Below, piece after piece: positions 11,215 to 36,741 of a DNA stretch of 64,000 nt (positions are counted from its first letter, which is position 1; each line of letters starts with the position of its first letter). Where the stretch lies: contig JAFLCC010000007.1 of the NCBI GenBank assembly GCA_017302835.1, positions 1 through 64,000 on the forward strand. Reading direction: 5' to 3'. The notes under the pieces were generated by a model. It was not told the origin of the DNA. It was given only the letters and a program-made list of their open reading frames with translations, and made no database searches. A program made the position numbers and the translations under genes. The stretch comes from Deltaproteobacteria bacterium (GTDB lineage Bacteria > Bdellovibrionota > Bdellovibrionia > Bdellovibrionales > Bdellovibrionaceae).

Positions 11215-11841
11215 TTAATACTCGCAGGATAGGGATTTTTTATCTGTAGCCGCAATGGTGATCCGATCAAATTGACTTGCCAAATAAGTTCCCATAACAC
11301 TTTGATCTGCATCCTTATGTTTCAAACCGAGGACATGCCCCATTTCATGAATGAGCAAGGCTTCTAGATTTATTTTCGTTGAAGACTTATCTTGAAGAGT
11401 TAAATCATAAAATTTAAAATTCTTAGCATTGATGCGAATATCCGCCTCTTTGATCTCATCTCCAAGCCAGTAAACACTTGTCCTCGCCTGTTCCGTAGGT
11501 TTGTCTTCCTCCCATTCTCCATAAAAATAAATGACATTTTGCATGTCCTTAAAAGACAGAACGGGGCCTTTTTGAATGTCCTTGGTATCAACAGCAATAA
11601 CATTTTTTCCTAAAGCTTTATTCCATTTTTCGGCTGCAGAAGTAATAGACTCATAATAATTAGCAGGAACGGATTCATGCAATTTCATCACGATGGGAAT
11701 CTTACCTTTCCAAGAAATTCTTTCCCCATAAACATTTTGCACAAAGCCGCAATCCTCTTGGGGCTTTGGAGCACAGCCAGACAAGTAGGAAACAGCAACT
11801 GACAAAATGATAAATAAAATTAGTCTGAATAATGTTTTCAT
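11215..11841 (-). CDS. Matrixin-like zinc metalloprotease lipoprotein
   Basis: The signal peptide ends in the lipobox SYLSGC (C23), so the mature enzyme is lipid-anchored. The catalytic signature HEMGHVLGLKH (residues 165-175) gives the three zinc-binding histidines and the catalytic Glu of the M10/metzincin group. It is followed by a turn with a methionine (SVMGTY). The domain is only about 140 residues, as in bacterial matrixin-like proteases. It probably cleaves proteins at the cell surface, which could fit a predatory or proteolytic life style (inference). Confidence 0.8.
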   Translation of the reverse strand: MKTLFRLILFIILSVAVSYLSGCAPKPQEDCGFVQNVYGERISWKGKIPIVMKLHESVPANYYESITSAAEKWNKALGKNVIAVDTKDIQKGPVLSFKDMQNVIYFYGEWEEDKPTEQARTSVYWLGDEIKEADIRINAKNFKFYDLTLQDKSSTKINLEALLIHEMGHVLGLKHKDADQSVMGTYLASQFDRITIAATDKKSLSCEY

Positions 11842-12378
11842 ATCTCATTGTGATACCATGGCAAGTCGTAGGCCAAACAGTGAGTTATTTTGAGATTTTT
11901 TCATCTTATTGAAATTATTAATAAATTTAAGATTCTAAAGAAATATTTGCGAGACACTAATTACTGTCTCATTTCAAGAATACTCATTCAAAAAAAACAT
12001 CATCTCTGCAACTTATTAATATTACTGACTATTTAGCGTCTTAATATTAGACAACCATTATGAGACAATTTTTATACATAAAGTTCCTTTATGACTAATC
12101 AAATACTTCCTGTGGAGACAAAGCCACACCAATGTCGAGGGCTGGGCGCGGTGATCCTGATAGCTAAAGAGACACCAGCATAGATAACTTATTGATTTGA
12201 CTCTGTATAACTAGTTGGCAGGTGTCTTGCATTTATACATTGGCAAGACCCATCAGTTCCCCCAGTCATAACCGTGACGATCCCAAGGGTGTTGAACAAA
12301 ATGCCAATCAAAAAAGCCCATCTGGACCTAGAAGAGGATTAAAAAAATCCTCTCCTCCTGCCCTTTTCAAGAACGCCT
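11842..12378. other. 537-bp intergenic gap with a sigma-54-like promoter and hairpins
   Basis: The left 350 bp hold the presumed promoter of the metalloprotease gene and nothing else recognised. From 12216 a sigma-54-type promoter points right. A transcript from about 12242 would contain a perfect hairpin AGAGGATT/AATCCTCT (12333-12353) whose right arm continues into the pyrimidine-rich TCCTCTCCTCCTGCCC. That arm can also pair with GGAGAGGA further right, around 12389-12396. A 73-codon frame at 12222-12443 starts upstream of the predicted start site and is not convincing. A small RNA is possible, as described in the findings. Confidence 0.35.
12215..12232 (+). promoter_or_regulatory. Near-consensus sigma-54 (-24/-12) promoter
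   Basis: TTGGCAGGTGTCTTGCAT matches the sigma-54 consensus YTGGCACG-N4-TTGCW at nearly every defined position. TGGC (12216-12219) and TTGC (12227-12230) have the exact spacing. No convincing gene lies directly downstream. The next rightward gene starts at 12996. Confidence 0.5.
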
Positions 12379-12831
12379 TCAATCAGGGAGAGGAAGATAA
12401 TTTTCGCTGCCACTTTTTAGTGGCTCCTTACAAATGTTTCTAGAATGATTAAATTTAATAGTTAATTTTGACTTTTCATGTTTCATATATTTCCCGTCAC
12501 TTGAAAAAAAACCATTGAAAATAATTCTAGAAAATAAATTTAAACCGCAACTTTCAGAGTAATTGATATAATCTGATTTAATTCCTACTTTGTAACTGTT
12601 GTTCGTTTCTTTCTCCAAAGTGTTGATTGGAAGCAGGTCTTCAAAATCATCATTAAGTAAATATATTTTTTTAAATTCATTTTGATTTTTTTCAAGAAAA
12701 ATTTTACTAAAACAAATTTTTGCTGGCATGATCGATTGCATTGCTTCATTTTTCCAACAGGGAATGGACATGGAAGTTGTTTCAAAAAAACAACAGATAA
12801 TGACCACTTTTAAAAACAAAAAAGCCTTCAT
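12379..12831 (-). CDS. Small secreted protein of unknown function, 150 aa
   Basis: The ATG at 12831 is preceded by GGGGGAG about 8 nt upstream. The N-terminus (MKAFLFLKVVIICCFFETTSMS) is a signal-peptide-like hydrophobic segment. The mature part has several cysteines (IPCWK, KICFSK, SCGLN, NICKE). No family is recognised. It lies opposite the lipoprotein gene at 12996 and shares with it a divergent region containing a long perfect inverted repeat. Confidence 0.6.
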   Translation of the reverse strand: MKAFLFLKVVIICCFFETTSMSIPCWKNEAMQSIMPAKICFSKIFLEKNQNEFKKIYLLNDDFEDLLPINTLEKETNNSYKVGIKSDYINYSESCGLNLFSRIIFNGFFSSDGKYMKHEKSKLTIKFNHSRNICKEPLKSGSENYLPLPD

Positions 12832-12995: not shown

Positions 12996-13586
12996 ATGGA
13001 AAAAATGTCAAAATGCAGTTCCCTAAGTCTTGTGATTTTTATGGGGCTTTTCGCTCTTAATCTAATTAATTGTAGCAGCAACCCAAATAAAGCAGAAAAA
13101 ATAAATACGGAAATTAAAAATCACGGTGATGTCACCGGGGATACCAAAGTAGGTATTAAAGACGGCAATATGGTAGTTCAAAAGAAAGTTCAAATGAATG
13201 AAGAATTACGTCGACTTCAATACGAAGTATATGAACTTGAAGATCGTGTCTATGGAAATCGAAAGTATGGGTCCCTAGGACTCTATGGAGTTTTAAGGGA
13301 ATGCCGTCTGGAAATTTCTGATCAAAAAAATGGTGGGGATGGCAAACTTAAATGGACCGAGCCTATGGACCGAATCACTGACAAAGAGGACGAGTACAAG
13401 GTTGGTCTTGACGAAAAAGATAAGCTTGTGGGCCTTTCAGAGGAATTTTTAAAAGATCGAATTGAAAGATTTAAAGGCTACAAGCAGGTGCTCATGAAGA
13501 GACAAGATGAGTACGAAGAAAAAGTACAAATTTGCAAAGCGGAATTAAAAGCTCAACAAAATCAAAATAAAAAACCTTCTGAATAA
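12996..13586 (+). CDS. Lipoprotein of unknown function, 196 aa
   Basis: The signal peptide runs to the lipobox ALNLINC, followed by SSNPNKAEK, so the product is lipid-anchored. GGAG at about 12983 provides the ribosome binding site. The mature protein is very hydrophilic and helical, with charged coiled-coil segments at residues about 70-90 (NEELRRLQYEVYELEDRVYG) and 150-190, and only two further cysteines. No enzymatic motif is visible. The pattern suggests a structural envelope lipoprotein (inference). Confidence 0.7.
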   Translation: MEKMSKCSSLSLVIFMGLFALNLINCSSNPNKAEKINTEIKNHGDVTGDTKVGIKDGNMVVQKKVQMNEELRRLQYEVYELEDRVYGNRKYGSLGLYGVLRECRLEISDQKNGGDGKLKWTEPMDRITDKEDEYKVGLDEKDKLVGLSEEFLKDRIERFKGYKQVLMKRQDEYEEKVQICKAELKAQQNQNKKPSE

Positions 13587-31399: not shown

Positions 31400-31687
31400 T
31401 TATTTTTTATTTAAAGAATCCTGCTCCGAAACCTCAGGCTTAAGTCTTGGGTTTGGACAATATTCTTTTCCATTAGTTCTACCCTTACACATCCAGGTAG
31501 TGGTGTATTTAATTTTCTCACCCTTCAAAATTGGATAATATCTGATATACTGCTCTGGATCTAAATTCGAAAGTACCTGCTTTTCTGAATCGCTGTAGAT
31601 AATTAATTGGAAGACTCTGTATTCCGCTCGCACTTGGGAGTTTGAAAAAACAAATAAAGAAAATAAAAGCGCCCTTTGTAAAACCAT
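31400..31687 (-). CDS. Small secreted protein, 95 aa
   Basis: A signal peptide (MVLQRALLFSLFVFSNSQVRA) is followed by a 74-residue mature domain starting EYRVFQLIIYS. It has a Cys pair (WMCKG, EYCPN), which may form a disulfide or bind metal, and the pattern LDPEQYIRYYPILKGEKIKYTTTWMCKGR. I do not recognise the family. It lies 19 bp upstream of the coiled-coil/Hsp20 gene on the same strand and may be co-transcribed with it. Confidence 0.65.
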   Translation of the reverse strand: MVLQRALLFSLFVFSNSQVRAEYRVFQLIIYSDSEKQVLSNLDPEQYIRYYPILKGEKIKYTTTWMCKGRTNGKEYCPNPRLKPEVSEQDSLNKK

Positions 31688-33369: not shown

Positions 33370-33659
33370 ATATGCTCCTTTGCTATTGTTATTCATTTTT
33401 TCCTCTTTTAAGAAGTGAATTTCTAATTACCTTTATGAGTTGCAAAGGAGAGACCTTACCTGAGATCAAATCAAAGTAACTTTAAATCTTAATTGCTTTG
33501 AACTGCGAGGATTAAATGGCTCTTAAGGGTTTTTTTTGAACGTCAATTTTCATCAACCTTAATTATTTTGCAACAGCCTTCTTTTTTGATGGCGAAGAAA
33601 TTGCTCACTCTCTTTACAAAATTTTAAAAATAATTTTAAAATGTCAAAAGGAGTTTTCC

Positions 33660-34346
33660 ATGAAAAGACAATTTTCTTTTTTAAGTTCTGTACTGAGTCT
33701 CACTTTACTCTTTCCACTTATAGGAAGTTCCGCTTCGATAAGCTCCCTCAGAGAGAAGTCTTTAAGAGCCTCGCAAGTACTTGATGAAGTCGTAAAGATT
33801 TCTGATAACTCCATTCCAAAAACCTTACTAGAAAAAGCGGTATGTATCGCAACGATACCTGATGTCATTCGAGGCGGCTTTGTTTTCGGCGCCAGAGTAG
33901 GAAGTGGACTTGTCTCGTGTCGGACAAACGGTGGATGGAGCCAGCCATCTTATTTAAAGGTTGCCGGAGGTAGCTGGGGACTACAGATTGGGATAGCCAC
34001 TGTGGATATGGTCCTGGTCTTTGTCAGCAAAAATGCTGTCGACAGACTCAGTGTTAGCAACTTCACACTTGGGGGTGATATTTCTGTTGCCGCTGGCCCT
34101 GTGGGAAGAGATGCTCAGGCTGGAACGGATTATCAGCTAAGCAGTGAGGTTTATAGCTACTCCAGATCGCGTGGCTTATTTGGTGGTCTTGTTGTTGAGG
34201 GAGCATCAATGATGGTCGATAACGAGTCAAATATGAAAATGTATTCTCCAGATCCAACAGCGCTAGATTTACTGACCTCAAGTGGGCAGACCGCTCCAGA
34301 GGAAACAAGGAGTTATGTAAATTCACTTAACAGAAACGCACCTTAA
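33660..34346 (+). CDS. Secreted SYLF (Ysc84-like) lipid-binding protein
   Basis: A signal peptide (MKRQFSFLSSVLSLTLLFPLIGSSAS) precedes the SYLF domain. The typical patterns are IPKTLLEKAVCIATIPDVIRGGFVFGARVGSGLVSCR, GGWSQPSYLKVAGGSWGLQIG, DMVLVF and AAGPVGRDAQAGTDYQLSSEVYSYSRSRGLFGG. SYLF domains bind phosphoinositides in eukaryotes; bacterial secreted versions are poorly understood. AAAGGAG precedes the ATG and a terminator follows. The gene is divergent from csbD, so the two could share a stress-responsive control region. Confidence 0.88.
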   Translation: MKRQFSFLSSVLSLTLLFPLIGSSASISSLREKSLRASQVLDEVVKISDNSIPKTLLEKAVCIATIPDVIRGGFVFGARVGSGLVSCRTNGGWSQPSYLKVAGGSWGLQIGIATVDMVLVFVSKNAVDRLSVSNFTLGGDISVAAGPVGRDAQAGTDYQLSSEVYSYSRSRGLFGGLVVEGASMMVDNESNMKMYSPDPTALDLLTSSGQTAPEETRSYVNSLNRNAP

Positions 34347-35745: not shown

Positions 35746-36741
35746 ATGACAGAACAAACTAAGATTATTGGACAAAGTCCAAAATTTATTACTTCGTTGA
35801 ATATTGCAAAATGTGTAGCTCGAAGCTCAGCAAATATTCTCATCACAGGAGAAAGTGGAACTGGAAAAGAAATTTTTGCCAAATTTATTCACAGAGAAAG
35901 CAAACATAACAAAGGCCCCTATGTGGCCATCAATTGTTCTGCAATTCCAGAAAACCTTCTAGAATCTGAGCTCTTTGGCCATGCAAAAGGGTCCTTTACT
36001 GGGGCTCAAGAAAAAAGAATTGGGCTCTTCGAAGAAGCCCAGGATGGAACATTATTTTTAGATGAAATAGGAGACTTGAGCTTATCTCTACAAGCTAAAT
36101 TGCTAAGAGTCTTACAAGAAAAACAAATTAAACGCGTCGGAGAGAATCAAAGCAGGTCTATCAATTGTCGCATTATTTCTGCCACCCATAAATTGTTAGC
36201 TCAAGAAATAGACGAGCATCGATTCAGAGAAGATTTATTCTTCAGACTAGATGTCATCCCTATTCATATCCCACCCTTGAGAGAAAGACCTGAGGATATT
36301 ATTTTACTCGCAGAATTCTTCTTAAAGAAATACTCTTTAGAAAATGAAGTTCCTATTAAATTATTTTCCAAAGAGGCCCTAAAGTTTCTTATGGAAAATC
36401 CATGGCGAGGCAATGTCAGAGAACTTGAGAACACCATAGAAAGAGCTGTCGCGCTTTGCAAGACAGAAGAAATAGTTCTTGAAAATTTTATTCCTTTGGC
36501 AATGGGGCTCAATGAAAGTAACGACAAAATGGATTTCTTTTCAAATGAAAACACTTTTTCTCTGCGCTACACCAGCTGCCTTCCGAAATTAGATGAAGTT
36601 ATTCATAGGTATCTTGAATTTGCAGTGCATAAAAATGGTGGAGCTAGAGATAAGACCGCAAAAGAAATTGGCATTGATCGAAAGACTTTATATAAAAGAA
36701 TCAAACCCGATGAAAACGATTCGTTATCGAAAGATAATTAA
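35746..36741 (+). CDS. Sigma-54-dependent transcriptional activator lacking a receiver domain (PspF-like layout)
   Basis: The 331 residues consist of an AAA+ domain starting almost at residue 1 and a Fis-type helix-turn-helix (AKEIGIDRKTLYKRIK). Walker A is GESGTGKE (35-42). The sigma-54 contact loop is GSFTGA (82-87), with Ser instead of the usual Ala. GTLFLDEIGDL is Walker B, and GNVRELEN is present. There is no regulatory N-terminal domain. PspF has the same size and plan and is inhibited by PspA, and a pspA gene lies 20 kb away. The partner here could equally be unknown. Genuine -24/-12 sites for it were not found beside the neighbouring genes. Confidence 0.85.
   Translation: MTEQTKIIGQSPKFITSLNIAKCVARSSANILITGESGTGKEIFAKFIHRESKHNKGPYVAINCSAIPENLLESELFGHAKGSFTGAQEKRIGLFEEAQDGTLFLDEIGDLSLSLQAKLLRVLQEKQIKRVGENQSRSINCRIISATHKLLAQEIDEHRFREDLFFRLDVIPIHIPPLRERPEDIILLAEFFLKKYSLENEVPIKLFSKEALKFLMENPWRGNVRELENTIERAVALCKTEEIVLENFIPLAMGLNESNDKMDFFSNENTFSLRYTSCLPKLDEVIHRYLEFAVHKNGGARDKTAKEIGIDRKTLYKRIKPDENDSLSKDN

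Follow-up and report, generated by a model that had tools for sequence, protein, structure and literature searches.

Only a handful of regulatory RNAs have been described from Bdellovibrio and related bacteria. In B. bacteriovorus HD100, the account given in PMC3627812 lists eight attack-phase sRNAs, for which homologues outside the species are not reported, and places merRNA at 1073741-1074185; the text of PMC3818213 places a hit-locus sRNA at 96455-96716. The conserved RNA described here adds one. Like the attack-phase sRNAs and merRNA it is a non-coding RNA present in HD100 (1199756-1199873, minus strand), where it is open to testing at once, but it occupies another locus: it lies away from the hit-locus sRNA, and neither it nor its coordinates appear among the eight sRNAs as listed in PMC3627812. 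As a check on the coordinates, a c-di-GMP-I riboswitch was located in HD100; its position, 1073868-1073951, falls within the merRNA span. According to its text, PMC3627812 listed attack-phase sRNAs only and left out any that were joined with the gene downstream; the RNA could thus have been missed there. Judged by title or the opening of the abstract, none of the articles listed on Bdellovibrio sRNA, sigma-54, rpoN, Hfq or deltaproteobacterial sigma54-dependent sRNA describes it.

Described systems elsewhere share some of its properties. Pxr of Myxococcus xanthus, as portrayed in PMC5568312 and PMC5684412, resembles it in being an RNA of 108 nt for which a sigma-54 promoter is predicted, in having stem-loops, and in its presence across a bacterial group in a lineage without Hfq. 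However, Pxr has three stem-loops and lies beside a sigma-54 response-regulator gene (nla19), whereas the RNA here has two stem-loops with an extended C-rich linker and is found next to a matrixin gene; the two are compared, and set apart, by description only. CrcZ/CrcY of Pseudomonas similarly have RpoN-dependent promoters switched on by an enhancer-binding protein, in the account of PMC8657755. They antagonise Hfq-Crc, whereas none of 138 genomes of the order concerned gave an Hfq match (PF17209), by a search that did detect Hfq in 5 of 14 controls. AbcR1 and PmaR of Agrobacterium, as described in PMC6234868, carry C-rich/anti-Shine-Dalgarno (anti-SD) unpaired stretches for pairing. In our RNA, by comparison, not every member has an anti-SD 5-mer, and where there is one it is not always unpaired; nor is there an Rfam match above the gathering score: an Rfam search of the window (the whole 64,000-nt stretch of DNA that was analysed) found two tRNAs only and nothing over the RNA, and a search of 13 member loci at E values up to 5 gave two weak matches, both outside the RNA.

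The window is contig 7 of a 3.63 Mb genome. The promoter and RNA stand in an intergenic stretch between a matrixin-type lipoprotein gene (11215-11841, minus strand; PF00413 match, E 1.9e-9) and an ORF of 150 aa on the minus strand at 12379-12831. This ORF is convergent with the RNA and separates it from a lipoprotein-like gene (12996-13586, plus strand), whose family lacks a Pfam match and has members in 46 of the 59 related genomes. The 150-aa product is small, secreted-looking and fast-changing, with no Pfam match; it has relatives of 26-30% identity in three congeners and none in G003. The initial annotation had proposed a sigma-54-driven small RNA at 12215-12400, in a region with no credible gene. 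For the plus strand that description stands. The sole ORF there, which would encode a 73-aa protein (12222-12443), is interrupted by stops in the nearest congener, G003, and we therefore regard the RNA as non-coding. On the minus strand the description does not hold, as the ORF at 12379-12831 starts inside the last 22 nt of the region.

The promoter reported by the initial annotation is present on the plus strand as TGGCAGGTGTCTTGCA (12216-12231), with TGGC at 12216, TTGC at 12227 and the exact spacing, the GG and GC of the -24/-12 elements being 10 nt apart. From this spacing, transcription would start at about 12242. The 8-bp hairpin is likewise as reported: AGAGGATT-AAAAA-AATCCTCT at 12333-12353, continuing into CCTCCTGCCC TTTT (12354-12367). 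By themselves, the promoter and hairpin of the window are weak and within chance. TGGCN7TTGCW has three matches in the window against 1.04 expected, a number reached by 5 of 100 shuffles; a looser pattern that allows one mismatch has five, against 2.8 expected. The predicted folding z score of the window RNA is -1.49, and 15 of 200 shuffles folded equally well. We regard the locus as real because it is conserved across relatives, since its single-sequence anatomy is not beyond chance.

A DNA search of 59 related genomes gave one notable match, of 79% identity over 195 bases, in the congener G003. It spans the promoter, the stem-loops and the pyrimidine tail, and stands before a homologue of the window lipoprotein gene at 12996. 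G006, from another genus, has the same promoter, with stems at the same places made of different letters. A scan of genome contigs with a 16-base pattern was too unspecific, returning 119 stretches from many phyla. We built a first covariance model from the window genome (G000) and G003 using 12240-12366 only, omitting the promoter as an independent test. Run on 30 sources, this model brought up nine more loci, with E values from 1e-16 to 0.5, and every one has a -24/-12 element directly upstream at the expected distance, a weaker one in the cases of G009 and G027. Two other weak hits (window 24432 and position 210 of L050) had no -24/-12 element with correct spacing; this promoter look-up covered the weak first-model hits other than those at window positions 31606 and 58626. 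The next model, R2, was built from 10 of the 11 sequences, G027 being omitted with its 3' hairpin misaligned. When 66 family genomes were searched with R2, 49 rows from 48 genomes reached E<=0.021. Of these rows, taken unselected, 46 scored 8 or more for a promoter within 45 nt, compared with 2 of the 31 weaker rows; one of those two, G023, was convincing.

Alignment A8 and model R3 were then derived from 48 loci. Among 140 genomes of the order, R3 had matches in 100 at E<=0.5 and in 96 when the cut-off was E<=0.0012; 48 of the matched loci had served to train it, and about half of the 96 genomes were new to it. The matches cover nine of the ten families of the order and are nearly always single-copy, G053 and G099 having two copies each. 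We take the order to be Bdellovibrionales, since HD100 belongs to the same family as the window genome. In all, 368 genomes of the phylum were searched, and among the 228 outside the order none fell below E 0.009; six with E values of 0.009-0.043 are at the chance level for 228 genomes. The total family comprises 100 members in 98 genomes. Promoter and RNA are thus kept in both close and distant relatives, a point on which the initial annotation had said its proposal would stand or fall. Genome comparison thereby defines an RNA family, with its predicted structure, its promoter and its order-level range.

Across the family, a TGGY-N8-TGC core lies within 45 nt upstream of 83 of the 100 members. 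The same core was found for 2 of 100 at -150 to -105, for 1 of 100 on the reverse strand and in 0.4% of shuffles. This count is slightly favoured because G001:C54, a second hit in its genome with no promoter within 45 nt, was dropped and G023 (E 5) was added for its promoter; with both choices reversed it is 82 of 100. Seven more members have the core further up: G074, which has an inserted hairpin; G131 and G045, at 50-54 nt; and G092, G051, G046 and G093, four genomes of one genus, at 107-160 nt. For the remaining 10 of 100, no core was present within the 260 nt examined, and several of these have near-misses, with TTGTA or TTGAA for the -12 element. L226 (G007) has lost the -24/-12 element and has kept both the RNA (E 9.7e-13) and rpoN. 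The order-wide conservation of promoter and RNA together supports the proposal of a sigma-54 promoter driving a small RNA, and we consider it almost certain, from these comparisons, that such a sigma-54-driven RNA exists as a conserved family.

As modelled, the window RNA is about 126 nt long (12242-12367, plus strand), a span that rests on the G003 block of 79% identity and on models R1-R3; its 3' end is that of the model. The 5' segment GCAAGAC (12243-12249) corresponds to CAAGAC or TAAGAC at the same place in many members; HD100 (L238) and other members of genus g6 have an extra short hairpin, GUCUC...GAGAC, near the RNA 5' end. Stem-loop 1 (12256-12297) consists of an outer stem (12256-12259/12294-12297), a CCC/GGG helix (12261-12263/12287-12289) and an apical hairpin (12265-12269/12274-12278) with a bulge on its 3' side. 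In 48 members these helices are paired at 96.0, 98.0 and 92.7%, with each pair changed on both sides. An unpaired, G-poor linker (12298-12329) follows. Its columns contain 6.2% G against 18-27% in other parts of the RNA (48 members); a cruder positional cut of 100 members, which includes part of the next stem, gives 18% against 21%. The linker is marked by a CCYAYC motif, found in the strict form in 80 of 100 members and as a slightly wider pattern in 89 of 100 (shuffled mean 16.4). The window linker is poorer than most, with only CCCATC (12318-12323) as a match. Stem-loop 2, the 3' hairpin (12333-12353), has an 8-bp stem with a purine 5' arm, a pyrimidine 3' arm and an A-rich loop; its helix is 85.5% paired (48 members), again with two-sided changes at each pair. 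The RNA ends in the pyrimidine tail CCTCCTGCCCTTTT (12354-12367), which is anti-Shine-Dalgarno-like and closes with a short U tract; 28 of 100 members have a run of at least four T near the 3' end.

In the model-fitted alignment of 48 members, 90.3% of cells pair and all 22 modelled pairs are changed on both sides. Fitting favours structure, so the shuffled and slid values are the guide for covariation: the score is 0.543, against 0.164 when shuffled and <=0.10 when slid. For a MAFFT alignment of 11 members that was not fitted to a model, RNAalifold recovered a single element, the apical hairpin of stem-loop 1, in which three of the five pairs show two-sided changes. The second fold proposed in the initial annotation, with a purine stretch downstream (about 12386-12397), was not borne out, as this stretch does not align in G003. 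We also looked by eye, in 47 segments, at an alternative hairpin between the linker end and the 5' arm of stem-loop 2, read as CUUCC/GGAAG in genus g3 and CCUACC/GGUAGG in many members of g6; it fails in much of g1 and in HD100.

The initial annotation had emphasised an anti-Shine-Dalgarno arm. Such an arm is indeed enriched near the 3' end: 61 of 100 members have CCTCC, ACCTC or CTCCT among their last 40 nt, where shuffles average 19.5 and reach 30 at most, compared with 15 of 100 for the first 60 nt (shuffled 20.1). However, it is not universal and is often paired. The predicted unpaired probability exceeds 0.5 in 19 of the 61 members that carry it (median 0.40), and for CCTCCTGCC in the window the mean is 0.39. 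The 3' anti-SD arm is thus favoured, though in part simply as the pyrimidine side of a purine/pyrimidine hairpin. The CCYAYC motif of the linker is more widespread than the anti-SD 5-mers, and is unpaired.

The genes around the RNA vary. In 47 loci, the matrixin gene is beside the RNA in 42, mostly divergent and in eight downstream on the same strand; other neighbours are the lipoprotein family (19 loci), isocitrate dehydrogenase (PF00180; 16), an OmpR-type response regulator (7) and, in others, Hsp33 (G079 was placed on the wrong locus both here and in the hybridisation test below). Because the neighbours vary and the orientation to the matrixin gene flips, the RNA is not the leader of one gene. 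This variation points to a free-standing RNA, which may still act as a leader in some genera. Being conserved, structured and non-coding, with no fixed downstream gene, the RNA has the properties expected of a trans-acting sRNA. We tested whether the linker and the tail hybridise with neighbouring genes around their starts; for most families shuffled sequences did as well (mean z -1.48 to 0.76). The lipoprotein family had the lowest score, a mean z of -1.48, with 3 of 19 below -2 for the linker. With no clear hybridisation signal, the matrixin, lipoprotein, isocitrate dehydrogenase and other neighbouring genes were set aside as pairing targets.

The likeliest mode of action is in trans, by base-pairing, and taken as a whole we favour, as reasonably probable, a sigma-54-controlled, trans-acting regulatory sRNA that base-pairs with mRNAs. 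A functionless coincidence of motif and hairpin would suit the weak single-sequence statistics, but conservation, covariation and promoter association refute it for the family as a whole, and we give it next to no chance. It is unlikely that the RNA is instead a structured, sigma-54-driven 5' leader acting in cis on a downstream gene, for example the lipoprotein gene of G003 and of G006, or the isocitrate dehydrogenase gene of Bdellovibrio. The same-strand lipoprotein gene does start roughly 230-260 nt from the promoter in G003 and G006, and in the genus Bdellovibrio the RNA is just upstream of, and points at, the isocitrate dehydrogenase frame. Yet the downstream gene differs among genera and in several genomes is far away or on the opposite strand, a convergent gene intervenes in the window, and the conserved block is closed by the hairpin and tail, followed in some members by a U tract. 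A sponge that sequesters CsrA or another RNA-binding protein through a repeated linker motif would draw on the greater frequency of CCYAYC than of the anti-SD motif, with two or more copies in 32 of 100 members, and on the precedent of CrcZ/CrcY, which PMC8657755 describes as sigma-54-driven sponges. For CsrA itself the RNA offers too few GGA motifs (a mean of 2.2 per RNA, with 65 of 100 members lacking ANGGA), so a CsrA sponge was rejected. Counting further against a sponge, we know of no protein that binds CCYAYC in these bacteria, and we judge this explanation rather improbable. More doubtful still is a broader role as a sigma-54-gated, Hfq-independent mimic of the 16S rRNA 3' end, which would act as a general brake on Shine-Dalgarno-led translation and as an order-wide riboregulator of life cycle or starvation, as Pxr in myxobacteria.

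For the trans-acting sRNA that we prefer, transcription, the activator, the base-pairing mode and the targets are inferred, and would combine as follows. A free-standing regulatory RNA of roughly 120-130 nt would be transcribed by sigma-54 polymerase only when an enhancer-binding protein, bound upstream, is activated by a signal. Its fold would comprise stem-loop 1, then an unpaired linker rich in C and A, and lastly a 3' hairpin followed by the pyrimidine tail. Through the CCYAYC motifs of the linker, and probably through the tail as well, the RNA would pair with G-rich sequence near the ribosome binding sites of mRNAs, and pairing would lower, or sometimes raise, translation of the target without Hfq. 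Mostly single-copy in the 96 matched genomes and nine families, and placed behind a promoter type that demands a signal, the conserved RNA is probably a regulator turned on by a signal. It would then exemplify regulation by an sRNA in an order for which the Hfq search was negative.

Candidate activator sites are CACC/GGTG boxes, accompanied in the window's branch by putative IHF-like bending. CACC/GGTG-type 6-mers are enriched upstream of the RNA members, and of the 90 members with a promoter, 46 have GACACC/GGTGTC in the 150 nt that precede the -24 element (mean of 5.0 in shuffles). In other families this box is just upstream of the -24 element; in the window's genus it is about 40 nt further up, with an IHF-like TAANNNNTTGA in between. 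For the window itself, we note the GACACCA box as a candidate regulator site from the family enrichment (12171-12177); an IHF-like site, TAACTTATTGATT (12185-12197), between this box and the -24 element, which matches the IHF consensus, YAANNNNTTGATW; and CACACCA (12125-12131), which from its sequence may be a distal activator half-site and which aligns with CACACTA in G003. In genera g1 and g3, most relatives have YAANNNNTTGA or a near variant at the IHF-like position. Members of genus g6, HD100 (L238) included, have CGCCGCAAAGTGTGGTGCAAAA upstream of the promoter.

rpoN is present in 60 of 66 family genomes, among them the window genome, G000, which has 14 sigma-54 activator genes. One of these is the receiver-less activator that the initial annotation had noted at 35.7 kb, and it is there as described (ORF 35746-36741, 331 aa, with a PF00158 match beginning at 35764). 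It is one of 14, however, so a special tie to the sRNA is not supported, and we rejected it as the specific controller of the RNA. Another sigma-54-like site is nearer to it: a further exact match, TGGCGAAGAAATTGCT (33590-33605, plus strand), stands about 70 nt before an ORF at 33660-34346 and close to the activator gene at 35746, and this site is perhaps a likelier target of that activator.
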